Source: a virus
IMG/VR virus record: IMGVR_UViG_3300037070_001255
Coordinates: 1-31,492 of that record
DNA: 31,492 nucleotides
Reading direction: 5' to 3' (one strand)
Of this stretch, positions 6,441 to 31,172 are shown piece by piece. The translations under genes and the position numbers were made by a program. Within the stretch, counting starts at the first letter, position 1. Every line of letters starts with the position of its first letter. The notes beneath the pieces were generated by a model. That model had not been told where the DNA came from, made no database searches, and saw only the letters and a program-made list of their open reading frames with translations.

Positions 6441-6446
6441 TATAAT
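6441..6446 (+). promoter_or_regulatory. -10 box for near-leaderless endolysin transcript
   Basis: Perfect TATAAT overlapping the end of the SSB-like gene, 7 nt before the endolysin ATG at 6454. No Shine-Dalgarno sequence fits in that space, so translation is expected to be leaderless. The match of both base composition and spacing to the other TATAAT-ATG pairs supports it. No clear -35 element. Confidence 0.6.
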
Positions 6447-6453
6447 AGTCCGT

Positions 6454-6993
6454 ATGACGCCTGAACTCCAAGCAATGGCCGACTTCATGAAGGATAGTGG
6501 TGTCCCTTATAGGATCACCTCCACCATCCGGTTGAACGACGCCGGTAGCTATCACGCCTTGGGCCTGGCTACCGACTTCGCAGGACCACTGCCTTGGAAC
6601 CAGGCCAAGCCTTCTCCCCAGCTTGTTGCCATCTGGAACGCCTGGATGGCACAGGCGGGGGGACTTACCGAACTGATCTACTCAGGCGCACCCTTCTATG
6701 TCTCAAAGGGTGTGGTAAGGTCGATCAATACTCTCAGCTCTGACCTTAGAGCTGCGCACTGGAATCACGTCCATGTCGCTGTCCCCAAGGGGTGGCGCTA
6801 CACAAAGAAGGTAGTTGTGCCTGAGATTGCTCCCCCTGATATTGACATCCAGTCCCCGCCCGGGTTTGTCGCCGCTGGCATCGCAGCCCTTTGCGACAGC
6901 AACGGAGTCTGTACTGGATATCTGATCCTTGGTACTGATGGAGGGGTGTTTGGGTTCGGGCCTGGCTCCCGATACTTCGGGAGAGTCCACTAA
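6454..6993 (+). CDS. Endolysin, M15-type (D-Ala-D-Ala/L-Ala-D-Glu) metallopeptidase
   Basis: A 179-residue lysis enzyme predicted to cut peptide cross-links of host peptidoglycan. Zinc-site residues fit the M15/VanY family: H34 and D41 in YHALGLATDF, and the H105-V-H107 pair in AHWNHVHVAV. The catalytic part covers about residues 1-115. A short linker leads to a C-terminal GYLILGTDGGVFGFG repeat-like module of the kind common in actinobacterial secreted wall proteins, probably for wall binding. No signal peptide is present, so it needs a holin (candidates at 6993 and 8216). The start is preceded by TATAAT and no RBS. The stop overlaps the next ATG as TAATG. Confidence 0.85.
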   Translation: MTPELQAMADFMKDSGVPYRITSTIRLNDAGSYHALGLATDFAGPLPWNQAKPSPQLVAIWNAWMAQAGGLTELIYSGAPFYVSKGVVRSINTLSSDLRAAHWNHVHVAVPKGWRYTKKVVVPEIAPPDIDIQSPPGFVAAGIAALCDSNGVCTGYLILGTDGGVFGFGPGSRYFGRVH

Positions 6994-7201: not shown

Positions 7202-8032
7202 ATGCACCAGTGTTCTGACTGTGGTTCAACAGACAGGGCACCCGGCCGCTCTCGCTGCTACCCTTGTTACTACATCCACCGGACCGCACAAGAGGCTCTT
7301 AGCCCCATGCGGGTCCTGTGCATTGACATTGAAACGTCCCCCAACGTGGCTTACACTTGGGGGCTTTTCAATCAGAACATCGGTATCAACCAGATCATCG
7401 ACACAAGCCGAGTGCTGTGTTTCTCAGCGAAATGGTTAGGAGAGGAGAACCAGTTTGCCGCAGAATGGATCGACCGAGAACTCATGCTTCAGAAAGCGTG
7501 GGATCTCCTCAACGAAGCGGATGCCGTCATCCACTACTACGGGAGTAAGTTCGACGTCCCCCACCTCAATCGAGAGTTCCTTATGGCGGGCTTTGGTCCT
7601 CCCTCTCCGTACAAGCAGATCGACCTCAAGGTCGCAGTAGCCAAGACGTTCAAGTTCACCAGCAACAAGCTTCAGCATGTGAGTGAGGCGCTTGGCTTGG
7701 CTGGCAAGATCAAGACGGACTTCAGCCTGTGGGAAGGCTGCCTCAACAACGACCCCGCATCCCAAGCGGAGATGGAGGAATACAATCGCCAGGATGTCGA
7801 GCTTCTGGAAGAGCTGTACCACCAGATGCTCCCGTGGATTCCGCAACTCCCCAACCGAAACCTCTACGACGCCTTCTCAGGTTGCCCCTACTGCGCCGGT
7901 GAAGATGTCGTGCGAGATGGATTCACCTACACCGCCCTTAGCCGATACAAGCGATTCCACTGCAACGACTGTGGCGCTTGGCTCCGTGCTCCCAAGCGGG
8001 AGAACGGGGTGCAACTACAGCCTGCGGTATAA
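7202..8032 (+). CDS. DEDDy 3'-5' exonuclease (RNase H-like) flanked by zinc ribbons
   Basis: A 276-residue nuclease. An N-terminal zinc knuckle (C4, C7, C19, C22) precedes a DnaQ/YprB-like core with D42 and E44 (CIDIETSP), D118 (YGSKFDVPH) and Y194-x3-D198 (YNRQDVEL), the DEDDy acidic set. A second zinc ribbon (CPYC about residue 228-231 and CNDC about 254-257) closes the protein. The enzyme likely degrades single-stranded DNA or RNA 3' ends. ATG 7202 is chosen because AGAGGAGAAGAG lies immediately upstream; the longer in-frame start at 7154 lies within the preceding gene. Having two zinc modules around the core suggests template or nucleic-acid docking. Its place between two lysis-type genes is odd for a DNA enzyme. 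Confidence 0.86.
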   Translation: MHQCSDCGSTDRAPGRSRCYPCYYIHRTAQEALSPMRVLCIDIETSPNVAYTWGLFNQNIGINQIIDTSRVLCFSAKWLGEENQFAAEWIDRELMLQKAWDLLNEADAVIHYYGSKFDVPHLNREFLMAGFGPPSPYKQIDLKVAVAKTFKFTSNKLQHVSEALGLAGKIKTDFSLWEGCLNNDPASQAEMEEYNRQDVELLEELYHQMLPWIPQLPNRNLYDAFSGCPYCAGEDVVRDGFTYTALSRYKRFHCNDCGAWLRAPKRENGVQLQPAV

Positions 8033-13982: not shown

Positions 13983-14567
13983 TTAGATCGGAGCAGCGCC
14001 GTCGTACATGAAGTGAAACGAGTAAGCATCCCCTGTAGCCAAAGCCCAAGGAACTGAGTTGCTGAGGAAGGTGTTAGGACTGGCCCCAGTGAATTGTACT
14101 GTAAAGACGTTGCTGTCAGAAAATGAAGGAACGTTGATTGCAACTGTCCTGACTTCGCCGGTACTGGAGTCTAGGATATACCCACCTCCAATGTTGATGG
14201 GGTTGATGATGTTGAGGTTGGGGTTTTCCCTGGGAGTAGGGAGTGAGAATCTCCACCCCTCGGCGGGAACAGACCCTGGTGCAGCGCCAGCACCTGCCTG
14301 GATGATGATGGTACCCAACACAGTCCTGCCAAATCTAGTGTAGTACCCCTGGACCACGCCGCTACCAAAGGTAGGTGCAGTACCACTACCGACTGTGACG
14401 ACAGGGACATAGCCAATCCAGCGGCCGGTGCCCAACATAGATTCCAAGTTGGTGTCTCTGTCTTGAAGAAGCCTGACCACATTCTCGAAGTCAGGCTCCA
14501 GCTTCGCCCGCCAAGGCTCTAATACTGTGTTGATGTCGTATGGGTACTCGTACTGATTGTTGGGCAT
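13983..14567 (-). CDS. Short tail fibre or needle-like protein with beta-sandwich C-terminus
   Basis: 194 residues from ATG 14567, which follows the nozzle stop by one base; longer frames extend antisense-like into the nozzle gene. The N-terminus has LEPWRAKLEPDFENVVRLLQ, predicted helical. The C-terminal two thirds is beta-rich, with SGVVQGYYTRFGRTVLGTII and WRFSLPTPRENP. This YxRxGRTV pattern recurs in phage fibre heads and is also seen in the C-terminal part of the 18577 protein here. Predicted to be a receptor-facing tip or tail knob. No enzymatic motif is seen. The gene ends just before the leaderless promoter. Confidence 0.65.
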   Translation of the reverse strand: MPNNQYEYPYDINTVLEPWRAKLEPDFENVVRLLQDRDTNLESMLGTGRWIGYVPVVTVGSGTAPTFGSGVVQGYYTRFGRTVLGTIIIQAGAGAAPGSVPAEGWRFSLPTPRENPNLNIINPINIGGGYILDSSTGEVRTVAINVPSFSDSNVFTVQFTGASPNTFLSNSVPWALATGDAYSFHFMYDGAAPI

Positions 14568-14568
14568 G

Positions 14569-16101
14569 TTAGAGCCTAACTGAGCTGGATTCGATGATGA
14601 CTTCGATGCGCCGGAAGGCGACACCTCGGCAGTTGGTGAAGTGGATTTGGAATCCGTTGCCGCCACCCTGATCGCCCATACTGATGAACTTGCGTCGGAC
14701 GGTACCTTCGGTGCTGGACTGCGTACCGATACCGTCCCAGGATTCGGTGTGGCTGACGATGGGGGAGGAGTTGTCGTAATTGCGATAGCTATCAACCCGG
14801 CAATCAAAGTGGTTGCTGAGAGTACCGCCAGTGTTCCAATCCCTGAAGTCAACAATGACCCCACGAACCACGACTTCTGAACCTTCATCTGAGTGCCACT
14901 CCGGGAGAGAGAAGTTGCCGGTGAGTTGGGCCAGAGAGTTGTCTCCCGGCAGGTTGTTGCCAGGGATGGCGAGGGTTGTTGAGCCTGGAGAGTCCTGACC
15001 TAGAGACCACAGATACACCTGAGATGTACCGGCATCATTGGCGAAAGCGATAGTAGTCGGCTGGTCATCCGAGGTGAGAGTGGGGATAGTACGACTAGCT
15101 GAGGTCACAAACTGGAGATCAGTTGCAACAGAGGATCCAAAGGTATGTTGTGTCCAGCAATTTCGGTAGTACACCCACATCTTCAACCCAAGAATGCTGG
15201 AGGTGAGGTAAATAATCGCATCACGCTCACGCATGATGTATGACATCGAACCGAAACCTTCAGCGAAATAGTTGTCAAGGAGCCGGTCGTATGATCCGTC
15301 GAACGAGGCCAGACAAGACTGATCGTTGGGAACAAACAGAAGTTGGCCGTTGGCACCAAGCGTGTCGCCGTCCCGTTGCCAGGTGGGGCCTGGCGACGAG
15401 GTGACCCGACGTAGAGTTTCGTTGACGCCCGGCACACCAGACAGCACGAAGAACCCCTCGGGCTTGGCAATGAGGAGCTGGGTCCGCTGAGTGTAGAGGC
15501 CGGTGATAGGTGAGGTATCCCCGCCTACGGCAAGCGTGTTCAGTGCAGGCCACGTGGTAAAGTCACCAGCAGCACTGTAATAGAGAATGTTTGGTGTGGA
15601 CGCAGCAGTTCTGCCCCCGACAACCAGACGATCACCATACAGTGCAATAGCACCGCCGCCTGGCGAGTTCACGTATTTGGTGAGGACCGGCAAACCAGTA
15701 GCTACACTGACCTTGTATGAGTCGTCGTCCGCAGCGTCGGTATAGTAGATGACCTGGGACTCACCTCTGGTGACAGCCGAGGTGCTGGTCGGCGCTGAGT
15801 CGAGAGACCCTGTAGTGCTCCCCACCCCGTTTTGTGGATCAAAGGCAATGATCTGGGTGCCCTTGATGACGATGATACGCTGACTGTTGTAAGGGCCAAT
15901 CATGTGGCCGATGGGGTTCCCAGCGAACCCAGTAACGTTGGTGACGCTGAGGCCCTTAAGGCCGGTGCGCACACCAAGCTCTCCCGTACGATACGGGATC
16001 ATGTTGGTACCGGTCCAACTTCCCTTAGGTGCGTTCCACGGGCCAGCGGCCCCGAACTCACCCTTGGTGAAGTCGTCAAAGATTACAGTTCTACGTGCCA
16101 T
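14569..16101 (-). CDS. Tail nozzle-like structural protein (podovirus tubular B type by position)
   Basis: About 510 residues from ATG 16101 (MARRTVIFDDFTKG); a GTG at 16134 would add 11 residues but lies further inside the upstream gene. Rich in beta-strand repeats with evenly spaced Gly-Asp-Arg and Gly-Asn-Pro turns (GPYNSQRIIVIKGTQIIAFD, ALYGDRLVVGG, NGQLLFVPNDQ). This is the layout expected for a beta-propeller nozzle such as T7 gp12 or P22 gp10. It directly follows the adaptor-like gene, as in podophage operons. The C-terminal part (about 410-510) is another jelly-roll-like segment. The assignment is by size, fold pattern and gene order. Confidence 0.7.
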   Translation of the reverse strand: MARRTVIFDDFTKGEFGAAGPWNAPKGSWTGTNMIPYRTGELGVRTGLKGLSVTNVTGFAGNPIGHMIGPYNSQRIIVIKGTQIIAFDPQNGVGSTTGSLDSAPTSTSAVTRGESQVIYYTDAADDDSYKVSVATGLPVLTKYVNSPGGGAIALYGDRLVVGGRTAASTPNILYYSAAGDFTTWPALNTLAVGGDTSPITGLYTQRTQLLIAKPEGFFVLSGVPGVNETLRRVTSSPGPTWQRDGDTLGANGQLLFVPNDQSCLASFDGSYDRLLDNYFAEGFGSMSYIMRERDAIIYLTSSILGLKMWVYYRNCWTQHTFGSSVATDLQFVTSASRTIPTLTSDDQPTTIAFANDAGTSQVYLWSLGQDSPGSTTLAIPGNNLPGDNSLAQLTGNFSLPEWHSDEGSEVVVRGVIVDFRDWNTGGTLSNHFDCRVDSYRNYDNSSPIVSHTESWDGIGTQSSTEGTVRRKFISMGDQGGGNGFQIHFTNCRGVAFRRIEVIIESSSVRL

Positions 16102-16732
16102 TAAGCCACATCGCTCCAGGTCGGACACGGACACGGGCAGGCGCAGCGCTACGGCGCCGGTTGTCCTGCATCCGCTTCAACCATGCCTGGTACTGGGACA
16201 TCTCGGCTGCGGCTCGGGGGTCTTCGTTCTGCCGTGCGTATCCCATACTAGCGGCCAGGTGGACGATGGCGTAGCGGAACGGGATGGGCATCACAGGGGC
16301 GTCCTCGTTGTTGACGAGGATGGGTTCCTGGCGGATGTAGTCGTGAGTGTATTGCAAGGCGCTGCTGGGAATAGGCGCCAGGATCAACTGCTCTTGGGTG
16401 ATGCAGTACCAGATTGGAATACCCCGGCCGTCACCGGCGCCTCGGATCTCCTTCAGCGGGTGCCACTCCAGCACGTCATCGTTCACCCTGGCTAGGCCAC
16501 GGGTGCGGGACCAGACATGGCCGACGTTGACGGGAGGCGTGTAGCTTTGCGTACCAGCCACCGTGTTGAGGGTGGCGCTGGACTGCAACCACGGCCAGTC
16601 CTCCTCCAGGGCGATGGCCTGAATGGCCTCGTTAACGAGGTCGTCCAGGATGGGCGCCGTGTAGAAGTTGTCAGCCTCGGGCACACCCAGCCGGGTGCGC
16701 ACAGACTCTCGGAGGGTTTCAAGGTTCATCAT
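16091..16732 (-). CDS. Head-tail adaptor protein (podovirus tubular A-like)
   Basis: 213 residues. The N-terminal helix set LETLRESVRTRLG, LVNEAIQAIALEEDWPWLQ and later LQYTHDYIRQEP and RYAIVHLAASMGYARQNED is the pattern of phage connector/adaptor proteins that sit below the portal ring. The C-terminus is Arg-rich (RMQDNRRRSAAPARVRVRPG). The two adjacent ATGs at 16732 and 16729 overlap the upstream TGA; either may be used. The stop overlaps the nozzle start by 11 nt, linking adaptor and nozzle synthesis. The role is inferred with good confidence from pattern and position. Confidence 0.78.
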   Translation of the reverse strand: MMNLETLRESVRTRLGVPEADNFYTAPILDDLVNEAIQAIALEEDWPWLQSSATLNTVAGTQSYTPPVNVGHVWSRTRGLARVNDDVLEWHPLKEIRGAGDGRGIPIWYCITQEQLILAPIPSSALQYTHDYIRQEPILVNNEDAPVMPIPFRYAIVHLAASMGYARQNEDPRAAAEMSQYQAWLKRMQDNRRRSAAPARVRVRPGAMWLNGT

Positions 16733-17127
16733 GGGAGGGTAGCCACCTTAGCAGCCGAGACAGACACGATCTGGTTGGCCGTGACTCTAACGTACCACAC
16801 CCGCTTGCCGCCATCGACGTCCGGGATCAGCTCGGTCACTTGGTACCAGCTCCCGAGGGGGCTGATGTTGGCGTTCGACTCAACCGGGCACTCCCAGTAG
16901 CCGACAGCGTTGGACACGACGATGACCTGCCGTGCCACCTCAGCGTTGGGAATGCTGAGGCGGAACCCGGCAGTTGGCATGAGCTTGATCTCCACCTGCA
17001 CCCCAGGGACGGGGAGCTGGGCGGGATCTAGGATTGTGTTGTAGAGAAGTCCGAGGGTGCCAGTGATTGCGGAGAACGCACCTGCATAAGCAGCTCCACC
17101 GTATGGCGCCCCACCATAGGTAGGCAC
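16729..17127 (-). CDS. Hypothetical virion protein, Gly/Tyr N-terminus
   Basis: 132 residues starting with GTG 17127 (TAGTG overlap with the preceding gene). The first 20 residues are Gly/Ala/Tyr-rich (YGGAPYGGAAYAGAF), a flexible tether typical of virion accessory proteins. The rest is a predicted beta-sandwich with PVPGVQVEIKLMP and SNAVGYWECPVESN, resembling carboxypeptidase-regulatory-like folds used in fibre bases. It lies between the three fibre-like paralogues and the adaptor, so it may link fibres to the portal vertex. No family is firmly recognised. Confidence 0.62.
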   Translation of the reverse strand: MPTYGGAPYGGAAYAGAFSAITGTLGLLYNTILDPAQLPVPGVQVEIKLMPTAGFRLSIPNAEVARQVIVVSNAVGYWECPVESNANISPLGSWYQVTELIPDVDGGKRVWYVRVTANQIVSVSAAKVATLP

Positions 17128-17843
17128 TAGACTGCGCTCCCGATGTCTTCAACTAGGATATAGGCGGGGAAGTCGGCCCCTGCTTCGGTTCCTACTGTGC
17201 CCGCTCCAGAGACTTGGTCAATAGTCAGCTTGTAGGTATGTGACCCAACGGACGGAGTGGTGACATACGCTCCGTACATATTCTCGGAAACTCCCGCCAG
17301 GTGGCTGCCGCCATCCCACATTCGTTGGAGATACGTTGTACCTTCTTTGAGAAACACAATAAAGCGAGTAGTGGCGTCAGTCGACGCAACCATAGCCTTA
17401 GCGGTAATCCGAACACGCCGGTTCGCAGGAACTATGACCGTCACTGCGAGGCCGGTCAGATCAACCTCAACTCCCGTGATGCCTCCTTGGCTGGTGGTGG
17501 TTTGGGCGTACCCCAACTGCCCCCCAGCCTTCACGTCGAAGTCTCGTACGGTCGGCCCGTGGAACCACGTGGTGTTGAAGACGTGGCTGCGGGCAACGGA
17601 GCCTTCCTGGCCCCGGAGGACCGTGACGGACGTGGCAGCGGCTGTATGGGCCGTGACCATGACGATCTCAGCCGTGCCCCCCACTTCGAGGGGGTCGAGG
17701 ATGAGGATGAGGTGCGAGGTAGCATCCACCACAGGCAGGTCGGCAAAGCCGGGACTGTTGATTGTGGTGGCGCCAATCGCCAGGGGGTTGTCGGAGATAG
17801 TGCCCGAGGTGTTGTTCTGTCGGATGCGGATTTCGTTAGCCAT
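17127..17843 (-). CDS. Fibre-like paralogue C (shared N-terminal anchor)
   Basis: 238 residues. Residues 1-100 repeat the anchor seen in the next two genes: MANEIRIRQNNTSGT, INSPGFADLP, HLILILDPLEVGGTAEIVMV and TTWFHGP. The C-terminal domain (about 105-238) differs from the 18577 protein but is distantly similar to that of the 17843 protein (PANRRVRITAKAM, then GSHTYKLTIDQVSGAG and YILVEDIGS at the end). Predicted all-beta. The conserved end ILVEDIG in this and the next protein suggests a jelly-roll trimer tip. The ATG starts at a TAATG junction. Likely a tail or head fibre. Confidence 0.75.
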   Translation of the reverse strand: MANEIRIRQNNTSGTISDNPLAIGATTINSPGFADLPVVDATSHLILILDPLEVGGTAEIVMVTAHTAAATSVTVLRGQEGSVARSHVFNTTWFHGPTVRDFDVKAGGQLGYAQTTTSQGGITGVEVDLTGLAVTVIVPANRRVRITAKAMVASTDATTRFIVFLKEGTTYLQRMWDGGSHLAGVSENMYGAYVTTPSVGSHTYKLTIDQVSGAGTVGTEAGADFPAYILVEDIGSAV

Positions 17844-18577
17844 TAGGTAGCCGGTCCTATGTCTTCAACCAAGATGAAGCCGGGATCTTGGGCTGCGTGT
17901 TCGATTGAGGCCGTGCCCGTGCCTGCAAATCGCACAACAGATACTCGGTAGTTGTGGGACCCTGCTGTGGGGTTGTTGACGATGACGGGCACCCCAAAAC
18001 GATCACGCTCGCCTACCACATTGCCTGGGATAATCCCCGTGCGCCCCAGCTCCGTGACCCCGTTCTCCCGGATCACACCGTAGTATCCGGCTGAGTTGGT
18101 CACTGTCAGGATTTGAATAGCACTGGAGATCATCAGGCGGCGGTTGGCGGGGGTGTTTATTGTGACTGTGAGGTTGGTGATGTCCGCACTAGCTCCAATG
18201 CCTACCTGATTCGACGTAGTTTGGGCGTAGGGAGCAGTTCCAACAAGGTTTGTGCTGGTGAAGGCCAAGTTGAAGTCCGACGCAACCGGCCCGTGGAACC
18301 ACGTGGTGCCGGAAGAGTGTGTGCGGGCCGCTGAGCCTTCTGCACCCCGGACTACTGTGACCACGGAGGCCGCAACACTGTGAGCCGTAACGGTCACGAT
18401 TTCGGCGGGGCCAGCCAACTCCAGGGGGTCCAGGATCAGGATAAGGTGGCTAGTCGTGTCAACAGTCGGCAGGTCCACGAACCCAGGGCTGTTGATCGTG
18501 GTGGCCACGTTCGTCAGCGGATTATCCGTTGTGGTCCCTGAGATGTTGTTTGAGCGGAGTCTGATCTCGTTAGCCAT
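17843..18577 (-). CDS. Fibre-like paralogue B (shared N-terminal anchor)
   Basis: 244 residues. It has the same ~100-residue anchor as its two neighbours (MANEIRLRSNNISGT, INSPGFVDLP, HLILILDPLELAGPAEI, TTWFHGP). A distinct C-terminal beta domain follows with PANRRLMISSAIQIL, GSHNYRVSVVRFAG and a terminal FILVEDIG. The C-terminal domain is related to that of paralogue C, less to A. In phages such anchors bind the virion while the tip meets the host surface, so this is a probable receptor-binding or decoration fibre. Start and stop are TAATG overlaps with both neighbours, giving near-equal coupled synthesis. Confidence 0.75.
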   Translation of the reverse strand: MANEIRLRSNNISGTTTDNPLTNVATTINSPGFVDLPTVDTTSHLILILDPLELAGPAEIVTVTAHSVAASVVTVVRGAEGSAARTHSSGTTWFHGPVASDFNLAFTSTNLVGTAPYAQTTSNQVGIGASADITNLTVTINTPANRRLMISSAIQILTVTNSAGYYGVIRENGVTELGRTGIIPGNVVGERDRFGVPVIVNNPTAGSHNYRVSVVRFAGTGTASIEHAAQDPGFILVEDIGPAT

Positions 18578-19425
18578 TAGGACGCTGCCTCATACGTTGC
18601 GTTGAAGCCGATCTGATCGCCCGCAGCAATGGCCAGAGCGAAGCCGCTGCCAGCGTTGCCCAGTACCTGGACAGCTTCATTCGCTGAGTATCCGCCTCGG
18701 AACTGGACCCGCCCGTTGTTGCCGGTGTCGCAGATCACGTTGCTGGAGAAGCCCTGTGCAAGGCTGGTGTCAAAGAGTGTGTGGGTCCCAAGCTCCCGAG
18801 GCACCGACGCCGACGCTATTGCCACGGGCACTGTCACTGAGATCGTCGTCCCTGCGGACCCTGCGCCAGTCGCTGTCAGGAACACGTTCACCGTGATCTT
18901 GCGACCGGACCTATGGAAGCGGGCATAGTTCAGCGTATAAGTGATCGTGGCTGCGCCCTGGACCCAGACCGGTGTGTAATCGGTCCACTGACCCATCGGG
19001 ACAACGTCTTCCCAGGTGTCATTGCCCGCTCGCCCCACGAACTTATCCGTGTCGATCTCGTAGATCAGGTCTCCCCGATACGGGATCGTCGGTCGGGTGG
19101 CAGAAGTGACGCTCTCGACCCAATCACTGACCACCGGCCCGTGGAACCAAGTGGTGCCCAGGCCGTGCTGGCGGGGGGTGGTAGTCTCAGCTCCACGGAC
19201 AACAGTAACCGTAGATGAAGCGGCTGCGTGGGCCGTCACCTGGACAATTTCAGCCGCCCCGCTCAGCTCCAGCGGATCCAGGATGAGGATGAGATGGTTT
19301 GTGGTGTTGACAGTGGGCAGGTCAACGAAGCCCGGCGAGTTGATCGTCGTGGCGCCGATGAGGAGTGGGTTATCGGTGATCGTCCCGGAGATGTTGTTCG
19401 CCCGGAGCCGGATCTCGTTGGCCAC
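18577..19425 (-). CDS. Fibre-like paralogue A (shared N-terminal anchor, different tip)
   Basis: 282 residues with a GTG start at 19425 (TAGTG). The first ~100 residues match paralogues B and C (MANEIRLRANNISGT, INSPGFVDLP, HLILILDPLELSGAAEI, TTWFHGP). A middle segment (about 115-145, YRGDLIYEIDTDKFVGRAGN) and the C-terminal C1q/jelly-roll-like domain (from WTDYTPVWVQGAATITYTLN through ARFHRSGRKITVNVF) are unique in the trio. They resemble tips of other phage tail proteins, including the 13983 product. This suggests domain exchange of the receptor-facing part on a fixed anchor. Confidence 0.77.
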   Translation of the reverse strand: MANEIRLRANNISGTITDNPLLIGATTINSPGFVDLPTVNTTNHLILILDPLELSGAAEIVQVTAHAAASSTVTVVRGAETTTPRQHGLGTTWFHGPVVSDWVESVTSATRPTIPYRGDLIYEIDTDKFVGRAGNDTWEDVVPMGQWTDYTPVWVQGAATITYTLNYARFHRSGRKITVNVFLTATGAGSAGTTISVTVPVAIASASVPRELGTHTLFDTSLAQGFSSNVICDTGNNGRVQFRGGYSANEAVQVLGNAGSGFALAIAAGDQIGFNATYEAAS

Positions 19426-20415: not shown

Positions 20416-21657
20416 TCACGCCTCGGTCACACCAGTGAACTTGCCGAAGCTGTTGCGTCGGTCAGTAGTCAGCTCGTGGAACCGGAAGAGAGTAGCCTCG
20501 TACCGGGCCTTGTTGGGCTGGCGGCTCCAAATGGCGCCGTCCAGGTCCATCCACTCCCAGTCGCCAGCGACGTGGAGCTTCAGGTGCTCGGAGTTGATAC
20601 CGTAGACCACGCCGGTCTGGCAGTCACGGTCGTCGGTAAGAGCAGCCTCGGAGTTACCCGAGCCAACCGACAGACCCTTGAAGCCACCCTTGAGGTCGAG
20701 GGTGTTGACAAACCGCTTCTGGCTGAGAAGCGAAGCCGAGTAGGCTCGCATCACGCCGTCCGAGGTGAGGAAGATGGCCGGATCCTTGCCGCACTCGTAG
20801 TTGACCCGGTTCATGAGGCGAACCAGAGCCAGCTCGGAGATGGCGCCAAGGGCGGTCTCAACGTAGCTGGTCCACCGAGGCTCGGTGGCGGGGTCCACGT
20901 TGAAGAGGACGCCAGCGTTATTGATGATCGCAGCCAGGCCGGTAGCTTCCACACCGACCGCCGAAGCGTCGGAGAGGCCAGCACGGTACAGGAAGTGCGT
21001 ACCGTCAGTGGTAGCGGCGAGGGCCGCACCGTCGACGGTGATGGTACCAGGAAGAGCGGCGAAGGAGACACCAACCACGGTACGGAAGTCAGCAATGACG
21101 TCGGCGTCGGCAACAGTACCGATGTCGATCTGCATACCGATCTCCACCTGACGCTGCTGCACACGAGTCGTGGCAGTAGCGAGCGGGACGGTATTGTCAC
21201 CACCGGCGTCGGTACCAATACCGACAACGATACCGGAGCCATCTCCGAAGAGCTGGCGGTTGAAGTCCTTCTTCATGTCCTCAGCGAGACCCTTGGTCTC
21301 AACGTTCATGACGTTGATGAAGGAGCCACGGTTGGTCTTAGCGGCCTTGAGGACACGCTCGTCCACCTGGATACGACCGAAGAGCTGCTTGAGCGGAACC
21401 CGCTCTTCAGCATAGCCCTGCTGGCCGATGGAGGTGGTGGCACCGGAAGTGCCGGGGAGGTCGGCGCCGTCAACACGGGCACCGAGGGAGCCGTTACGAC
21501 GGGTGTGAAGCGAGAGGACGGCGTACCGACCCTCAACGTCAACCTTACCCTTAGAAACGTACTCAAGAAGCACGTTCTTGTTGTTGATCTGCTCACGCAC
21601 CGGGTCAAGATAGAAGTTCTTGAGGGCGGCGTCGGCAGTGGACATTGACTGACCCAC
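20416..21657 (-). CDS. Major capsid protein (HK97-fold type)
   Basis: 413 residues forming the head shell. Recognisable features: an N-terminal arm (MSTADAALKNFYLDPVREQI), then the extended region DGADLPGTSG, YAEERVPLKQLFGRIQVDER and NVETKGLAEDMKKDFNRQLF, the long spine-helix type segment seen in many actinophage capsids. A beta-rich A-domain follows, to KLHVAGDWEWMDLDG near the C-terminus. It is preceded by a scaffold gene, as expected for a shell assembled on scaffold. GTG 21657 (7 nt after AAAGGTG) is preferred; ATG 21645 is 4 codons inside. A TATACT promoter-like box lies about 130 nt upstream, so it may have its own strong transcript. Confidence 0.85.
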   Translation of the reverse strand: MGQSMSTADAALKNFYLDPVREQINNKNVLLEYVSKGKVDVEGRYAVLSLHTRRNGSLGARVDGADLPGTSGATTSIGQQGYAEERVPLKQLFGRIQVDERVLKAAKTNRGSFINVMNVETKGLAEDMKKDFNRQLFGDGSGIVVGIGTDAGGDNTVPLATATTRVQQRQVEIGMQIDIGTVADADVIADFRTVVGVSFAALPGTITVDGAALAATTDGTHFLYRAGLSDASAVGVEATGLAAIINNAGVLFNVDPATEPRWTSYVETALGAISELALVRLMNRVNYECGKDPAIFLTSDGVMRAYSASLLSQKRFVNTLDLKGGFKGLSVGSGNSEAALTDDRDCQTGVVYGINSEHLKLHVAGDWEWMDLDGAIWSRQPNKARYEATLFRFHELTTDRRNSFGKFTGVTEA

Positions 21658-21804: not shown

Positions 21805-22539
21805 CTAGAGACCGGCCAGCCACTGATCGAGGGCCTTATCGGCATCCTCGAAGGTCTTGATAGAACGCTCACCGGAGGCAGGAGCGCCTCGGTCGGTGAC
21901 CATCGGATTGGGGCGACCGCCCACCTCGGCAACCTGCTTGTCAAAGTAAGACTGGTACTTGGCCTGGATCTTTTCGTGAGCTTCCTTGATGTCGCCGGTC
22001 TTGGTCTTGCTGGCGTGCCAGAGGAGTTCCTCGTAGCTCTCCGATCCGACCTCGTAGCCGAGTTCCGTGGCCTGAGCTTCGATCCCCACCACTCGGCGTT
22101 GGATGTCCATCTCGTGGTCACGCTGTGCCATGAGCTGCTCGAAGTCAGCCCGAGTCATGACGGGGTTGTCCGGGTCGGACTCCTCAATCAGCTCTTCGAC
22201 TTCTTCCTGGAAGTTGGACTCGATGGCCTCGTAGATCTCCTTGAACCGCTGAGCAGCGGTACGGGGATCAGACTTCAGGGCGTTAGCCAGGTCAAGCCAC
22301 TCGGAGACTGCTTCCTCCTCGTAGCCATCAAAGGCTTCGTTGTACTTCTTGGCACGCTCACGGTAGGAGGCAGACTCCTTGCGGAGCTTCTCTACGTAAG
22401 CACGGTCGAACTTGTCCCCTTCAGGAAGGGGGTCGGGGTCGGACTCTACGGCTGGAGTATCAACAGGGGCGGGGGTTTCAACGGCGTCATCGCCGTCACT
22501 GGCCAGGAACGCATCTAGAGCTTCTTCATCGACAGGCAT
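21805..22539 (-). CDS. Capsid scaffolding protein
   Basis: 244 residues, strongly acidic and mostly helical. The N-terminus is disordered and Asp/Pro/Glu-rich (SDGDDAVETPAPVDTPA). The middle is predicted coiled coil (YVEKLRKESASYRERAKKYN, then FQEEVEELIEESDPDNP and FEQLMAQRDHEMDIQRRVVG), ending in a short basic-acidic helix (KTFEDADKALDQWLAGL). This composition between portal and capsid genes is typical of scaffold proteins, which guide procapsid assembly and then leave. ATG 22539 follows GAAAGGATAGG. It is unlikely to be a protease, as no catalytic motif is visible. Confidence 0.83.
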   Translation of the reverse strand: MPVDEEALDAFLASDGDDAVETPAPVDTPAVESDPDPLPEGDKFDRAYVEKLRKESASYRERAKKYNEAFDGYEEEAVSEWLDLANALKSDPRTAAQRFKEIYEAIESNFQEEVEELIEESDPDNPVMTRADFEQLMAQRDHEMDIQRRVVGIEAQATELGYEVGSESYEELLWHASKTKTGDIKEAHEKIQAKYQSYFDKQVAEVGGRPNPMVTDRGAPASGERSIKTFEDADKALDQWLAGL

Positions 22540-22554
22540 CGGGCCTATCCTTTC

Positions 22555-24573
22555 TTAGCTTGGAGTTGGCGCACCCGGTTCGGGAGCCAATACCTCGCCC
22601 GGACCGGGCGGAGGCTGCATCTCGGCAGGACTGCCGGACGTGGGGCCAGGCAGCGGCTGTTCCGCACCTGGCATACCTTCCATCATCCCTGCCATCTGGG
22701 GAATCTGGGCAGGCTCAGAACCTTGAGCTGCCGCAGCCAGTGCGGGGTTGACGTTCATCTGTGCGACTTGCTGGCCAGCCTCTTCGGCAGCCATAGTCTC
22801 GTGGGCCTGAATCCACATATCCACGTTGCTCTGGAATTCCTCAGGGAGGCTTTCGTAACGGAGCGTCTTGCGGAATTTGTTGCCCACCTCGATGGACTTG
22901 GCGTGGTCATCGAAGTCCCGAGGGACAGGGATGCGCCCAACGGCCAGGTCACGCATACAACGCTGGGCCTTGGCCTTGTCAGCGTCGATGGCGTCCAAGA
23001 GGTTATCTTGGTCGGGGAGGTCTGCGATTCGAGTGAACATCTCCGGGTCTTGAATGATCTTTCGGTCCCAGAGTTCTTTGGCGAAGGCTAGGAGGGCGGT
23101 TCGCGAACGAGGCATTACTGCGTCCATCGGGACGGTTGCTTCGGTCTGACCTGCTAGGCTCTTTCCGTTCCATTCAACAATCTCCGGGGACTGGCCCCGC
23201 TGCTGAAGCTTCGCCTTGCGGGTGTCCTTCACCAGAGCTGCGTAGGTCTCCAGGACCAGGCAAGCGTACCTCTGGAATCCGAACGCCATCTCCCGTGTAA
23301 GGGCGCCCAAAGGCGTAGAATCTTGTTCGACAAGGACACTTAGACCGACACCAGACTCGATGCCGGAGGGCGCAACGCCTCGGGAGATTTCGTGCAACCC
23401 AAGAGTGTCGTCCATCTGCTCTGCGATCATCCGAGGGTTCTCGATCACCCAGGCTTGCATTGCTGCGGGTGTCATCCATTCAGGCTTACCTGCCGCATTG
23501 TTGTAGTTGAGGATCTCGCCAGGGAGGTCCGTCAGTTCTTCGATGCCGTCCAGGGCGGCATCCGGGACGAGCATACGGGCGTTGCCCGCAAGCTTGATGT
23601 GCTCCAGGATGTTGGACCAGGACTGGTTGTAGGCGACCTGCATGGGGACCACGGCGTTCATAACCGTGTCTCCCTGGGCACGGCCCTGCACCTTGGTCTC
23701 CCGGAAGACCACCATGTTCAGGCGGTCCTTGAAGGGGAACGGCCAGTCGTGGGGACCGTCTACGAACTTGTTGTCAACGACTGTGGCAACCGCACCCTTG
23801 GGACGTCCCTTGGTGGGACGCTCGAAGTACGTCAGTACCAGCGTCAAGTTCGGCCTGGGCCGGTTGGATTCCTCCATTGTGAGAGTGCGTCCAAGATAGC
23901 CTTGGGCTGCGGTTGCATCCGCAGGCGGTAGGTCTTTCAGGCCGTACATCGCCTGCACCTGGGTCGGGGGCAGAGCCTGAGCCTTGATCCACCACATCGC
24001 CTTTTCGGCGTCCTTGGCACCCGGCTCCCACGCAACTTCCAAGATGTTTAGCGGACATTCGTAGATGTCACCTCCACCGATGTCGGAGCCGTCCTGGCGG
24101 TAGCCAAGCGTCTTGCCCCGGTCCTGATCCCACTCGAACCCGAGCACAGCGGTCCCGCCCAACCATGCGGTCCAGGCAAGCTGCTCTCTGACGTTCTCCC
24201 AGTTGTTTGTCTTAGCGATAGCTTCGAGGACAGCCTCGGCGGTGTGGGCGCCCCGGACAGAGGCGTCATCGGCTTCCGAAGGCGCCACCTCAAACACGAG
24301 GGGGCGGCTGAGAAGCTTTGCCATAAGGTGCCGAGTGGCAGGCCAGATCCGATTGAACGTGCAGCGAAGCCTGTCAGGCTCTCGGGGGATAGCCGCAACC
24401 GACCTGGACACGGTGTCGAATGTAACCCACTGCTGTCCGTGCAGCATGGCACGGTTGAGGATGAACGACCACTGCTCTTTGAGCATGGCCTGGTTCGATT
24501 CCTCAAACTTGTCCTTAATCTCGGAACAGGAGACCTGTCCGCTATCCTTAGCCTTCGAGAAGATGTTTGCCAT
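22555..24573 (-). CDS. Portal protein (large, podovirus-type)
   Basis: 672 residues; the dodecameric DNA gate of the head. Patterns typical of large portals: an N-terminal helical part with WSFILNRAMLHGQQWVTFD and RCTFNRIWPATRHLMAKLLS, the wing region with RPNLTLVLTYFERPTKG, the stem/crown region with YNQSWSNILEHIKLAGNARM, and PSGIESGVGLSVLVEQDS before a long helix. The C-terminal ~80 residues are a Pro/Gly/Ala/Gln-rich disordered tail. Longer than most siphovirus portals, which fits podophage portals with long barrels. ATG 24573 has only a weak GTAGGA ahead. It follows a small membrane protein gene by 2 nt. Confidence 0.85.
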   Translation of the reverse strand: MANIFSKAKDSGQVSCSEIKDKFEESNQAMLKEQWSFILNRAMLHGQQWVTFDTVSRSVAAIPREPDRLRCTFNRIWPATRHLMAKLLSRPLVFEVAPSEADDASVRGAHTAEAVLEAIAKTNNWENVREQLAWTAWLGGTAVLGFEWDQDRGKTLGYRQDGSDIGGGDIYECPLNILEVAWEPGAKDAEKAMWWIKAQALPPTQVQAMYGLKDLPPADATAAQGYLGRTLTMEESNRPRPNLTLVLTYFERPTKGRPKGAVATVVDNKFVDGPHDWPFPFKDRLNMVVFRETKVQGRAQGDTVMNAVVPMQVAYNQSWSNILEHIKLAGNARMLVPDAALDGIEELTDLPGEILNYNNAAGKPEWMTPAAMQAWVIENPRMIAEQMDDTLGLHEISRGVAPSGIESGVGLSVLVEQDSTPLGALTREMAFGFQRYACLVLETYAALVKDTRKAKLQQRGQSPEIVEWNGKSLAGQTEATVPMDAVMPRSRTALLAFAKELWDRKIIQDPEMFTRIADLPDQDNLLDAIDADKAKAQRCMRDLAVGRIPVPRDFDDHAKSIEVGNKFRKTLRYESLPEEFQSNVDMWIQAHETMAAEEAGQQVAQMNVNPALAAAAQGSEPAQIPQMAGMMEGMPGAEQPLPGPTSGSPAEMQPPPGPGEVLAPEPGAPTPS

Positions 24574-25533: not shown

Positions 25534-25907
25534 TACAGGATCTCCTCTACCTGTTCGGCCATTGTGACAGAGCCGGTTCCGGTAGTTCCGGTGATGTTGA
25601 CGGACACGAAATGCCCCTTAGGAACCAGATAGCTGAGCTGGGATCTCTGGAGGTTGGTGGCCAGCACACCTGAGAGTTGGTTCCGAGTAGACGCCCGAGC
25701 CGTCACAGGAGGGTTGCTGGCATCCGACAAGAGCGTTACCTGGCGGTTTGCAGTGCCCAGTAGGGTAGATGAGATGCTGATCTCCACGGTGTAGGAAACA
25801 TAACAAGGCCTATCTGGAGATGGCTGGAACGCCGTGCCTAGCACTCGGACAGGGGTGGTCGGCTGGAAGTTCGGGTTCATAGTGTCCCGAATTACAGCGG
25901 CGCCCAC
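25533..25907 (-). CDS. Beta-rich virion surface or fibre-associated protein
   Basis: 124 residues from GTG 25907 (TAGTG overlap). Contains PCYVSYTVEISISSTLLG, RQVTLLSDASNPP and LSYLVPKGHFVSVNITGTTG ending EEIL. This pattern (YTVEIS, LLSD, SYLVP-G) is the beta-sandwich module that occurs at the ends of many phage tail or hypothetical virion proteins. It is probably a small decoration or fibre-tip protein. It belongs to the row of short beta-rich genes between terminase and portal. Confidence 0.68.
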   Translation of the reverse strand: MGAAVIRDTMNPNFQPTTPVRVLGTAFQPSPDRPCYVSYTVEISISSTLLGTANRQVTLLSDASNPPVTARASTRNQLSGVLATNLQRSQLSYLVPKGHFVSVNITGTTGTGSVTMAEQVEEIL

Positions 25908-27169
25908 TAGACTTGCTCCGACACTAGGACAGTGGTGTTCACGGCAGCTTCCCGGATCATGAAGAGCTGCTCATCCGGGCAGAAGGGCATCTGAAGGATC
26001 AGCGTGTCGCCTGGAGCGAGTTGGGCGATGCCTGTAGTGGCCGTGACCCCAGTGACGCCAATCCGGCAGGTGCCAGCAGCTCCGATGTTCTTGATGATGC
26101 AGGACTTACGGTTGGCGTTGGCTGCCAGGATTGCGATCTGACCGGCTCCCGCTGTCGTTACCTGAGCGCCGTTGGTTGCAGTTCCGGCTACTCCAGCAGC
26201 AAGAAGGATCGTCATCGTGAACAGGTTGATGTTCATGTTGTCGATATCAGACTCGATGTTGTCCAGGCTGGTGTTGGCAGCATGGAGATCGCCGTCGATG
26301 TGGGTCAGCAGCGTGGTCTGAGCGTCTAGCTCGGCGTTGACAGCATCCAGATCGGTCTCGATATTGACAAGCACGGCAGTCTGAGTGTCCAGCTCCGTGT
26401 TAATGTCGTGGAGGTCGCCGTCCATGTGGGTCAGGAGAACGGTCTGGGTGTCCAGCTCAGCGTTGACTTGATCGAGGTCGGTCTCGATGGTAGTCAGCAG
26501 GCCAGTCTGGGTGTCCAACTCGATGTTGACGTCCACCAGCTCGGCGGTGATGGCAGCCAGCTCAGCCTCAATAACAGAGAGATCTGAGGTGGTGACCTTG
26601 ACTTCCCGGTCGGCGTTGAGGTGGAACGGCTCGTAGTTCTGTTCGGCTGGGACGCCGGGGATGATCCACTCGAAGTCGTCAATGAAGGAGGCGTCAAGAC
26701 CTGCGGTCCCGGAGCCGTCCTTGATATAGCGCATCGTGACAGTGGTGGCACCGGCAACATTGAGGGTCACCTGGGTCCACGTGTTCGCCGTCCCGGAGAC
26801 CTGCAAGAGCAGGTTGCCTGGGATGATAGCGTCCTTGTAGACCCGGAAGAAGTCGAAGTTCGGCTCCGAGGACACCCGGTACCAGAACCTCAAAGCCGTG
26901 GCGGTGGCCGGGATGTTGAAAACCTGATCGGTGCTGGCGTTGGACCCGATTACCGCCGACCGGAGGCAGTTGGTGCCGGTGTGGGGGCTTGAGGTGGTGA
27001 TCGTCCAGGTACCTGTACCGGCTACGCCACCCTCGAAGTCCTCAGTCGCAACGATCTCCTCGGGGACGGCGGGAACGCCGTCGAGGATACCGAGCGCCAT
27101 AGTCCCACGGTCGCCCTCTAGGGCGTCAGCGGTCCACGGCCACTGGATGTTCGGGCTGTTTATAGGCAT
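25907..27169 (-). CDS. Fibre protein with lectin-like domain, 21-residue coiled-coil repeats and beta module
   Basis: 420 residues in three parts. Residues about 40-175 form a jelly-roll/MAM- or CBM-like domain (ATEDFEGGVAGTGTWTIT, then TALRFWYRVSSEP and DASFIDDFEWIIPG), suited to sugar binding. Residues about 195-320 are a coiled coil with four perfect 21-residue units starting at E217, E238, E259 and E280 (each ELDTQT or ELDAQT), alternating in type. Residues about 330-420 are a small beta module (RKSCIIKNIG, LAPGDTLILQMPF) shared with the next genes. Such parts make a trimeric fibre. It starts at a TAATG overlap. Receptor binding is the expected role. Confidence 0.78.
   Translation of the reverse strand: MPINSPNIQWPWTADALEGDRGTMALGILDGVPAVPEEIVATEDFEGGVAGTGTWTITTSSPHTGTNCLRSAVIGSNASTDQVFNIPATATALRFWYRVSSEPNFDFFRVYKDAIIPGNLLLQVSGTANTWTQVTLNVAGATTVTMRYIKDGSGTAGLDASFIDDFEWIIPGVPAEQNYEPFHLNADREVKVTTSDLSVIEAELAAITAELVDVNIELDTQTGLLTTIETDLDQVNAELDTQTVLLTHMDGDLHDINTELDTQTAVLVNIETDLDAVNAELDAQTTLLTHIDGDLHAANTSLDNIESDIDNMNINLFTMTILLAAGVAGTATNGAQVTTAGAGQIAILAANANRKSCIIKNIGAAGTCRIGVTGVTATTGIAQLAPGDTLILQMPFCPDEQLFMIREAAVNTTVLVSEQV
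26270..26521 (-). repeat. Four in-frame 63-bp repeats coding 21-residue heptad units
   Basis: Within the 25907-27169 gene, four consecutive units of three heptads each start with the codons for ELD(T/A)QT. Units 1 and 3 carry I-E-T-D-L-D, units 2 and 4 carry D-G-D-L-H, giving a 42-residue super-repeat. This is direct evidence of tandem duplication in the stalk. The copy number sets fibre length. Confidence 0.85.
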
Positions 27170-27996
27170 TACCTAAGCTCCGATACTCTAGCGAATCCGT
27201 CAGCGAAGTCCCAGATGCCGTTCAAGAATCCGGCAGCGCCGGTACCACCCCACATCGGCCAGGACTGCGGCAGGCAGAACGTATGCTGCGGGGGCACCTT
27301 GACGTCGAAGGTAGTCAGCGTAGCCGCCAGGTTGTAGCGGATCATCAGGTTGCCACGAGTGGTGTCGTTGAAAACTTCCAGTGCCCGGCGAGTCGGACCA
27401 CCCGTGTTGCCAGGGTCCAGGAGGGCGTTGACCAGAGAGGCGGTAATGGTGCTGCTGGTGCTGGTGAACTTGGGTGCCGGTGGGACCACGACCTGATTGA
27501 ACATGGTGGCCGACACTTCATCCACCCGGGCCTGCAAGGGCTGGAAGGTGCCGGACAGCAGCTTACCGAAGTTCAGGTTGTTGACAATCTGGGCGTCCGG
27601 GCTGCCGGTGATGAAGCCCACCGGGGCCACCGAGCCTGAGATCGTACCTCTACGGAGCAGAGTTTCGATGTGGAGGTTGGACTGACCAGTCCCTGCGGCG
27701 TGGTACAAGACCCGCATCACCTTCCCACGGACAACAGCGTGTACCGTCTGGAAGGTCGTCAGGTTAGACCCGAAGATGGTGACGTCCAGGAAGACGTCAT
27801 CGGAGTCGTACCACTCAATGCGGATGGCATCCGCAGCCGCAGGGGCCACGTTCCCGGCTGCCATTACCGTGATCGTGGTGTAGTCAGTCACATCGACCTT
27901 GGTGCCCGTGAAGAAGGCGTTGACGCCCAGGTTGATACCGTGGGCGCTGTTCCCAAGGGAGATGACGTTGATGTCTGTCGGTGACAGGCCGGGCAT
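27169..27996 (-). CDS. Virion surface protein with C-terminal beta module
   Basis: 275 residues. The N-terminal half (about 10-120) is a beta domain with YTTITVMAAGNVAPAAADAI and IRIEWYDSDDVFLDVTIFG, resembling small phage decoration folds. The C-terminal ~70 residues (RRALEVFNDTTRGNLMIRYN, TTFDVKVPPQHTF, GIWDFADGFARVSEL) are homologous to nearly all of the next gene's product. It starts and ends in TAATG overlaps. Probably a head or tail surface protein. Confidence 0.7.
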   Translation of the reverse strand: MPGLSPTDINVISLGNSAHGINLGVNAFFTGTKVDVTDYTTITVMAAGNVAPAAADAIRIEWYDSDDVFLDVTIFGSNLTTFQTVHAVVRGKVMRVLYHAAGTGQSNLHIETLLRRGTISGSVAPVGFITGSPDAQIVNNLNFGKLLSGTFQPLQARVDEVSATMFNQVVVPPAPKFTSTSSTITASLVNALLDPGNTGGPTRRALEVFNDTTRGNLMIRYNLAATLTTFDVKVPPQHTFCLPQSWPMWGGTGAAGFLNGIWDFADGFARVSELR

Positions 27997-28331
27997 TAGG
28001 TGACTTCCGTAACTCGTGCGTTGCCGGTCGCAGCGTCCCAGATGCCAGCCACCACGCCCGTATAGGCAGGATACTGGAACTCGTAGGAGGAGTTACCGGT
28101 GATCTTCAGGGTGAATGCTGACAAGGAGGATGTCGCCGCAAACGCCAGGTACAGCGGAGAGGTTGAGTCGTTATACACGATCAGGGCCTTGCGCAGGGGG
28201 TTGCTGGCCTTGATTACTACCGTGGTGATGGACGCCGCAACAGACGTCAGGACAGCCGTATCAACCCCGGAGATGTCTCCTGGGATGATGTTAGCAACTA
28301 CTTGTCCACTATTTGCGCCGGTCTTTGCCAT
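27996..28331 (-). CDS. Single beta-module virion protein
   Basis: 111 residues. Residues about 45-111 are the same module as the C-terminus of the upstream-listed 275-residue protein: RKALIVYNDSTSPLYLAFAA, SAFTLKITGNSSYEF, GIWDAATGNARVTEV. The N-terminal 40 residues are Ser/Thr/Val-rich and possibly extended. It may be a free decoration protein or a monomeric partner that docks beside the fibre. TAATG overlaps on both sides. Confidence 0.7.
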   Translation of the reverse strand: MAKTGANSGQVVANIIPGDISGVDTAVLTSVAASITTVVIKASNPLRKALIVYNDSTSPLYLAFAATSSLSAFTLKITGNSSYEFQYPAYTGVVAGIWDAATGNARVTEVT

Positions 28332-29596: not shown

Positions 29597-29602
29597 ATTA
29601 TA
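29597..29602 (-). promoter_or_regulatory. -10 box overlapping the terminase stop codon
   Basis: TATAAT on the - strand formed by the last codon and TAA of the terminase gene. Transcription would start near 29590, giving a 27-nt leader with an AGGAGA ribosome site before ATG 29563. Unlike the other boxes here, this one serves a leadered gene. Confidence 0.5.
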
Positions 29603-31172
29603 GCAGGTTCCCCCAGCGGGAGGCTGAGGTGCGGAGCTTCTTCTTGCGCCGGGCAATGATCCTGTCCGTGTAAACCTTGTTGATGTCGTAGACTTCGGGG
29701 TCTTTCTCCACCTTCGGAGGCCGGATACGGTCCGTCATGTGCCGTGCGGCGTAGGAAAGGCAGTCTACCATGTCGTCGTGGGCTGCATTCGGGAACTGCT
29801 GGAGTTCCTGCTCGAAATCGGTCAGCCACGGGGCGCTTTGGGGGAAATAGATGGCTCCAGCCTCAAGAAGCGCTACGGCACTCCACGCCCGAGCAACCTT
29901 ATCCTTGTCCGGGATCAGTTCAATGGTCGCAATGCCTCGGCGGCGGAGCTGCGTAAGCAGTGTCAGGCCGAAAGTGGACTTCTCAATGCCGTGATACCGG
30001 ATTTTGTGCTTGTTGTTGAGCGCTCTTACAAGGGATTCGTGCTCTGCGGACTCAATTCGCTTGCGGAAGAGGTCCAAAAGCAGGATTTCCCGGTCCGGGG
30101 TAACCCCCCAGACGCAGAAAACGGTGTAGTCGCCCGAAGTTTTCTCGGTTGCAGCCAGGTCTGACGTCGTAAAGCACCAAAGCGCCTCCGCTTTGACGGC
30201 TTTCATCACCCCACCTGGGGCGTTATATGAATACTGTAGGCCGTTAGGGGTATGTTGCGGAGTAAAGTACCGGAAGTCCTGGGCTTTGAACATGTTACCA
30301 CCCTGGATGGTCGGCTTCTGCTGGTATTCCGCAGACCACCACCTGGACCCCATGCCCTGCTGAATCTCCCTGAGAACCGGTAGGTCGAAACGCTCGGGCC
30401 AGAGCGGCTCTCCGGGAAGACGGCCCACTTGGTCTAGGCCGGATCCTTCCGGGTGGTCGGCAATAGCCGGGAGGGAGAGCTGATACCAGAGATCCGGGTT
30501 CTCCTGTAGGCAGCGTCCCGCCAGGTCGTCCTCGTGCCAGCGGGTCATCACCATGATGAACACGCAGCCCGGCTCCCTACGGGGAATAACCGTACCCTGC
30601 CACCACTTCCAGTGCTTGTCCCGCACCAGATCCGAATCCGCCTCTTCGGCTGATTTGACGGGGTCGTCAATGACAAACAGGTGGGCGCCCTTGCCCGTGA
30701 TAGGGCCTCCAGCCCCCGCCGTCTTGAGGCCGCCCTGATGGTTGAGAATCGCCCAGTTGCTTTTGGAGGCGGTGGAGGGGTCGAGGTAGATGCCCAGCTC
30801 CGGGTGGGTCTGGATGTAACGGCGTGCGTCGGCGCCGAAGTCCGCTGCAAACTCTGCCTCATATCCCGTAACAATCACCCGGCGGTCCGGATAGCGGGTC
30901 AGGAACCAAGGCGGGGTGGCTCGGGTCAGCAGCTCGGACTTGCCGTGTCTTGGCGGCATGTTCACCATGAGGCGGGAAACGAGGTTGCCGGTAGTTGGAT
31001 GGAACAGTTGGTTTTCTACTAGTTGTGTGGTAATCGAGGAAAGCAGGCGGACATGGGGTGGGGTGAGAAACTCGGGGTTGTTATATTGTGCATAGGCGAG
31101 TGGGCTAGATGTAGCAACCTGGCGTCGGAGTTCTGCTTCGATGCGGTCCAGATCCTGAGTCTTGAGAGCCAT
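29598..31172 (-). CDS. terL: Terminase large subunit
   Basis: 524 residues; the packaging motor that cuts and translocates DNA into the head. ATPase domain: Walker A MPPRHGKS (K78), Walker B LFVIDDP (D169-D170), coupling motif TRWHEDD (210-216). RNase H-like nuclease domain: D338 (TTSDLAATEK), E397 (GIEKST) and D466-D467 (AHDDMVD), which should coordinate metal. The length is usual for the family. The start is ATG 31172 with TATAAT exactly 6 nt upstream, so no RBS. No small terminase is visible in the window; it may lie beyond the right edge or be absent. It is the first gene of the leftward virion operon. Confidence 0.95.
   Translation of the reverse strand: MALKTQDLDRIEAELRRQVATSSPLAYAQYNNPEFLTPPHVRLLSSITTQLVENQLFHPTTGNLVSRLMVNMPPRHGKSELLTRATPPWFLTRYPDRRVIVTGYEAEFAADFGADARRYIQTHPELGIYLDPSTASKSNWAILNHQGGLKTAGAGGPITGKGAHLFVIDDPVKSAEEADSDLVRDKHWKWWQGTVIPRREPGCVFIMVMTRWHEDDLAGRCLQENPDLWYQLSLPAIADHPEGSGLDQVGRLPGEPLWPERFDLPVLREIQQGMGSRWWSAEYQQKPTIQGGNMFKAQDFRYFTPQHTPNGLQYSYNAPGGVMKAVKAEALWCFTTSDLAATEKTSGDYTVFCVWGVTPDREILLLDLFRKRIESAEHESLVRALNNKHKIRYHGIEKSTFGLTLLTQLRRRGIATIELIPDKDKVARAWSAVALLEAGAIYFPQSAPWLTDFEQELQQFPNAAHDDMVDCLSYAARHMTDRIRPPKVEKDPEVYDINKVYTDRIIARRKKKLRTSASRWGNLL

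Follow-up and report, generated by a model that had tools for sequence, protein, structure and literature searches.

Klebsiella phages carry several receptor-binding proteins (RBPs) in which a conserved N-terminal anchor is joined to an exchangeable C-terminal specificity domain (Latka et al. 2019, PMC6872550). Usually one RBP in these systems possesses the anchor, and the others use conserved short peptides to dock on a branch resembling T4gp10 (PMC6872550). In SU10, the adaptor has six docking sites for trimeric long fibres and the nozzle has six for short fibres; one long fibre type, made of two proteins, and one short fibre type are present, and the trimers are held by their N-termini (PMC9509320).

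The three neighbouring genes analysed in this study (A, B and C, with an anchor beginning MANEIR) resemble the Klebsiella systems in having an anchor, exchangeable ends and re-used N-terminal elements. However, the Klebsiella tips are depolymerases, whereas the tips of A, B and C look like binding domains and the full anchor is present in each gene. SU10 is similar in its adaptor type and fibre-bearing tail, and the docking of A, B and C is drawn by analogy with it, but three anchor-sharing genes are found here in place of one long and one short fibre type. Multiple RBPs re-using N-terminal elements are already established, and the design of A, B and C is fairly ordinary; the retention of a complete anchor by each of three neighbours is the less common point and is somewhat unusual. 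Overall, our analysis suggests that these genes probably encode three short podovirus receptor-binding fibres that share an anchor, arose by an old duplication and include one fibre, A, whose tip was replaced.

Arrangements of the same kind were identified in other IMG/VR contigs. Contig L063 has three tandem genes that begin with 'S(S/T)NRP/STRP..YETDT' and bear three tips, with a capsid-like gene upstream and an adaptor-like gene downstream, and L016 and L022 each have two 'MASTFPT..LD.FTNP' genes followed by a gene with the ILVEDIG tip described below. All three contigs are like the locus studied here in having neighbouring genes with a common start and different tips, one of them of the ILVEDIG type; the shared start, however, differs in sequence from the MANEIR anchor. 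In L063, the open reading frames (ORFs) 5965-6504 and 7326-8012, located ahead of the tandem fibre genes and between them, look on inspection like homing endonucleases of the HNH and GIY-YIG types and could promote cassette exchange.

Virion genes of the phage

The window, that is, the whole stretch of DNA analysed, is a 31,492-base IMG/VR virus sequence in which the virion module is encoded on the minus strand. The features of this module that bear on the analysis are as follows.

29598-31172, minus strand: terminase-like protein (sequence inspection)
22555-24573, minus strand: P22-type portal (PF16510, E 4e-15)
21805-22539, minus strand: probable scaffold (position)
20416-21657, minus strand: major capsid protein (PHROG, E 8e-75)
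18577-19425, minus strand: gene A, 282 aa, GTG start; anchor, linker and second-type tip
17843-18577, minus strand: gene B, 244 aa; anchor and ILVEDIG-type tip
17127-17843, minus strand: gene C, 238 aa; anchor and ILVEDIG-type tip; AlphaFold model
16729-17127, minus strand: 132 aa protein just downstream of C (phmmer E 2e-22 to a protein of L027)
16091-16732, minus strand: SU10-type head-tail adaptor, candidate docking ring (PF24175, E 2e-21)
14569-16134, minus strand: probable nozzle/tail protein (weak similarity to same-position proteins in L005 and phage DS1)
13983-14888, minus strand: probable tail protein with a C-terminal domain in the family of the A tip (profile comparison)

After the capsid gene the order is a 156 aa protein, a 134 aa protein, A, B, C, the 132 aa protein, the adaptor and the probable nozzle, with further tail proteins and probable ejection proteins downstream. 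Judged by its genes, which include both an SU10-type adaptor and a P22-like portal, the phage is a short-tailed one (podovirus). Its nearest isolated relatives are Microbacterium phage Shocker, Arthrobacter phages of the Jasmine group and Cellulosimicrobium phage DS1, with identities of 26-36% for the capsid and 20-24% for the portal; they infect laboratory strains of these three actinobacterial genera.

The first-pass annotation had proposed, from coupled translation, that A, B and C are all made together. This is a weak argument, since the one-base overlapping stop/start junction (TAATG/TAGTG) is common across the structural genes and recurs at seven other sites (25907, 27169, 27996, 28331, 28606, 12209 and 13303).

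Three further proteins or pairs of the module were recorded. The 132 aa protein has a homologue in the N-terminal domain of a protein of L027 (2986-4152) that ends in an ILVEDIG tip; it is possibly an anchor left without its tip, or a piece of an adaptor that has none. Between terminase and portal, a second pair of neighbouring paralogues is found (27169-28331, minus strand), in which a 111 aa protein is homologous to the C-terminus of its 275 aa neighbour and has a further match at the end of an L047 ORF of 835 aa. The 420 aa protein encoded before the portal (25907-27169, minus strand) contains a repeated heptad-like 'IETDLDxVNAELDTQTxLL' pattern, with weak coiled-coil and fibritin-like matches, and is perhaps another trimeric coiled-coil fibre.

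The shared anchor, its relatives and its age

Analysis of A, B and C located the following parts and a short DNA block, GGCCCGTGGAACCA.

19120-19425, minus strand: anchor of A, about residues 1-102
18269-18577, minus strand: anchor of B, residues 1-103
17535-17843, minus strand: anchor of C, residues 1-103 (9-100 modelled as a beta domain)
18991-19116, minus strand: linker of A, 'TSATRP...YEIDTDKF' (approximate)
18577-18990, minus strand: tip of A (approximate)
17843-18244, minus strand: tip of B (approximate), ILVEDIG family
17127-17519, minus strand: tip of C, residues 109-238, ILVEDIG family, predicted TNF/C1q-like jelly roll
19136-19149, minus strand: GGCCCGTGGAACCA block in A, WFHGP codons
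18288-18301, minus strand: GGCCCGTGGAACCA block in B
17554-17567, minus strand: GGCCCGTGGAACCA block in C

The shared N-terminus of about 100 residues described in the first-pass annotation was confirmed: the ORFs lie exactly where it had placed them, and over about 102 gapless N-terminal residues the anchors are 78% (A-B), 70% (A-C) and 71% (B-C) identical. Comparison by phmmer gave 3e-48 for A-B and 8e-66 for B-C. Unrelated anchors had been named as one of two findings that would count against the proposal, and the clear anchor homology in the protein alignment removes it. A, B and C have no Pfam match up to E 1, and a tblastn search with all three against 50,697 phage records gave no match. 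The best PDB sequence match of the anchor is 8jov, a 'putative tail fiber protein' (18 chains), which aligns at the corresponding N-terminal position; with an E of 0.19 the match is not significant and serves as a lead only. A literature search on 8jov and on TNF-like phage tips found nothing relevant.

Synonymous change in the aligned anchors, a check proposed beforehand, was high, with dS of 1.5-2.2 and dN of 0.19-0.25 for the anchor pairs (NG86). Identical codons occur at 35 of 78, 31 of 70 and 37 of 72 identical residues for A-B, A-C and B-C, respectively, against 31.8, 29.9 and 30.4 expected from codon usage. Since silent sites are saturated, these sequence comparisons indicate that the duplication is old and that the anchor is kept by purifying selection on the protein.

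Similarity of the three genes at the DNA level, also claimed earlier, held for the GGCCCGTGGAACCA block, of which the window has exactly three copies, one in each gene over the WFHGP codons; the rest is only as alike as the protein forces, and outside the block no excess DNA identity was found among the anchors. At the block, an exact run of 15 nt is common to all three genes (P about 0.016 with synonymous codons drawn at random) and one of 22 nt around it to B and C (P about 0.013), both values being uncorrected for the examination of several runs. The block is located where the anchor ends, as one would expect of a recombination joint, but the signal is weak. Recent gene conversion between the anchors was considered as a general feature and rejected, codon identity being near expectation and one short block slightly above chance. 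GC3 is lower in the tip than in the anchor in B (0.63 versus 0.74) and in C (0.59 versus 0.80); in A (0.73 versus 0.77) it is not clearly so.

Searching IMG/VR with a 5-row anchor alignment identified nine contigs, representing seven distinct phages after the near-duplicates L066/L067 and L068/L069 were merged. Whole-contig searches found one strong anchor copy per record, some records being fragments, versus three in the window. Among the nine contigs the anchor sits on at least four different C-terminal ends. The ends joined to anchor homologues are an ILVEDLG tip in L065, an A-type linker with an ILVEDIG tip in L010 and L069, another tip type in L066/L067, an end with a weak C1q match in L071 and a Gp10_C end in L072 (PF21939, E 9e-29). 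The comparison of tips among related phages, as the first-pass annotation had recommended, thus revealed the same anchor on different ends. No loci were recovered when C alone, a 3-row anchor alignment, the nozzle or the portal was used as query; no anchor was found in bacterial genomes or in the capsid homologues L004-L006.

The neighbours of the anchor gene in these contigs bear on where the proteins belong. In L065 and L073 it comes after a gene for tape measure protein (PF06791, E 5e-11, and PHROG, E 5e-182, respectively), and in L010 it adjoins a minor tail protein gene (E 4e-48). As in anchor-type RBPs, a conserved N-terminal domain is therefore found on unrelated C-terminal ends among virion tail genes. 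A placement on the head would make A, B and C capsid-decorating fibres with a capsid-bound anchor, aiding adhesion to cells or surfaces. In agreement with such a role, the genes lie after that of the major capsid protein, from which A is separated by only two small genes, and before that of the adaptor; an anchor gene also follows the capsid gene in L066/L067, and TNF/C1q-like tips occur on surface proteins outside the tail as well (the matches include a Bacillus collagen-like protein). Nevertheless, we consider it unlikely, because the anchor gene stands among siphophage tail genes in L065, L073 and L010, and in L072 directly follows an adaptor-like gene and carries the baseplate/tail-fibre Gp10_C end.

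An 'ELFYVW..RGYNGTTAAAHTAG'-like stretch is present in adaptor-like proteins of L063 (12375-12995), L058 (475-1374) and L072 (3939-4838). With the anchor profile its scores, 10.6-12.7 bits, are weakly above those of shuffles (7.0); a domain related to the anchor may also be used in the connector.

Tips and the origin of the A tip

A degenerate-DNA scan for [FY]ILVEDIG identified 55 IMG/VR stretches, in which about 46 ORFs share a homologous C-terminal domain of about 130 residues on many different N-termini. The MANEIR anchor is on the same protein as this tip in L010 and L045 (anchor E 3e-30), and in L025 it is in a gene neighbouring the ILVEDIG gene.

The tips of B and C are homologous (blastp E 8e-23, 37% identity), whereas blastp of the A tip against those of B and C gave nothing (best E 2.5 and 0.7). 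The earlier description of B and C as alike and of A as unrelated to them is thus correct, but the A tip does have relatives, such as the protein at 13983-14888. A profile built from other contigs only gave 22 bits for the A tip and 30 bits for the C-terminal domain of 13983-14888, against 7 for the best of 500 shuffles; B scored at shuffle level. Scores above the shuffles place the A tip in a family that is found on a different N-terminus within the same genome. Further relatives of the A tip are proteins in L015, L016, L022, L023, L033, L037, L039 and L053. In L010 the A-type linker connects the anchor with an ILVEDIG tip, and the same linker type stands at the start of the tandem fibre genes of L063 and L058.

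In the anchor tree (102 columns), A and B are sisters with support 93/94, no branch being fully starred. Forcing B and C into an anchor clade costs 9.45 lnL (AU p 0.034), while the tip tree neither confirms nor rejects B and C as sisters (p 0.34). The anchors pair A with B, yet a common tip type is confined to B and C, and from this incongruence the A tip was most likely replaced rather than inherited. The presence of the ILVEDIG tip on B, C, L010 and L065 makes an ancestral ILVEDIG tip, replaced in A, the simplest history.

Whole-gene duplication followed by fast tip divergence, with B and C as working fibres, the A tip extremely diverged and no exchange within the phage, would also leave homologous B and C tips. 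The tip phylogeny is compatible with a simple sister pair, and in these trees tips evolve much faster than anchors. Even so, this history appears quite unlikely, as the A tip reaches 22 bits to a different tip family where shuffles reach 7 and B stays at shuffle level, and as other phages have the same anchor on a clearly unrelated end (Gp10_C). Duplication plus tip exchange, as first proposed, is supported by the incongruence of anchor and tip, by the anchor on different C-terminal ends and by the combination of an A-like linker with a B/C-type tip in L010.

Predicted fold and role of the fibres

In the AlphaFold model of C from a 29-row alignment (mean pLDDT 91.9), which replaced a model from 3 sequences with pLDDT 46, a disordered N-terminus precedes a beta domain (9-100), and a short hinge connects this domain to a jelly roll (109-236). 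Among PDB structures, Foldseek matched the C tip compactly to the BC2L-C N-terminal lectin (TMt 0.65) and the Photorhabdus TNF-like lectin PLTL (0.63), which have the predicted jelly-roll fold in common with the tip but sequence identities of 13-16%. The matches also include the cyanophage A-1(L) short tail fibre, the lactococcal phage 1358 RBP and the receptor-binding domain of TM4 gp23, and those in BFVD (viral library) include tail proteins of actinobacterial phages. Birnavirus VP2 and Cry proteins had the top Foldseek E-values and were set aside as generic jelly-roll matches (rmsd 15-21 Å, TM 0.1-0.3). According to the model, the tip of C and, by homology, that of B are TNF/C1q-like jelly rolls. 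Domains with this fold are usually trimeric and often bind sugars. A, B and C would be trimers, and their tips probably bind sugars.

An enzyme fold was the other finding named beforehand as counting against virion parts. GDSL esterases are present in the capsid-adaptor interval of Shocker and Casserole, together with a beta-helix protein in Shocker, and A, B and C in the same interval might by this token be virion or secreted enzymes, e.g. esterases. This is very improbable: A, B and C match no enzyme family, no recognisable catalytic domain of an esterase or depolymerase was found in them with Pfam up to E 1, and the predicted tip of C is lectin-like. Tail-gene neighbours in the relatives, the lectin-type tip fold and the lack of an enzyme family together support the assignment as virion tail proteins. 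The contents of the interval in Shocker and Casserole make it plausible that the slot is used across the group for proteins that recognise surfaces, with some phages having enzymes there and the present one binding tips.

In the reading as three short receptor-binding fibres, the beta-rich N-terminal domain would attach each fibre to the tail and the C-terminal tip would contact the cell surface. The anchors would most likely dock at or near the adaptor/nozzle encoded just downstream, by analogy with SU10. Tandem duplication of an ancestral gene with anchor and ILVEDIG tip would have given the set, and the tip of A would later have been replaced by a type also present elsewhere in the genome. 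Homology, modularity, the predicted fold and the tail context in relatives support this reading directly; the attachment point, the trimer state, sugar binding, a different target for each tip and the production and display of all three are inferred.

A receptor-range system, as the first-pass annotation had called the set, is a plausible role on these sequence data. No reverse transcriptase with template repeat and no invertase were noticed on reading the ORF translations of the window. As all three full anchors are under strong purifying selection, the fibres may share docking sites. Competition for the same sites, giving a random mosaic of tips on each virion, or mixed trimers, is a tentative extension that we regard as rather doubtful. 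If true, mosaic virions would be a built-in hedge on receptor choice without switching machinery.

Descriptions of the MANEIR anchor and of the ILVEDIG tip, a widespread domain, would be useful for annotating many tail proteins, as neither has a Pfam family or a significant PDB sequence match. The tree and the recombinant relatives document that several tips are kept on one anchor by a small podovirus, and if its fibres share docking sites, this phage would offer a simple system in which to study mosaic virions.
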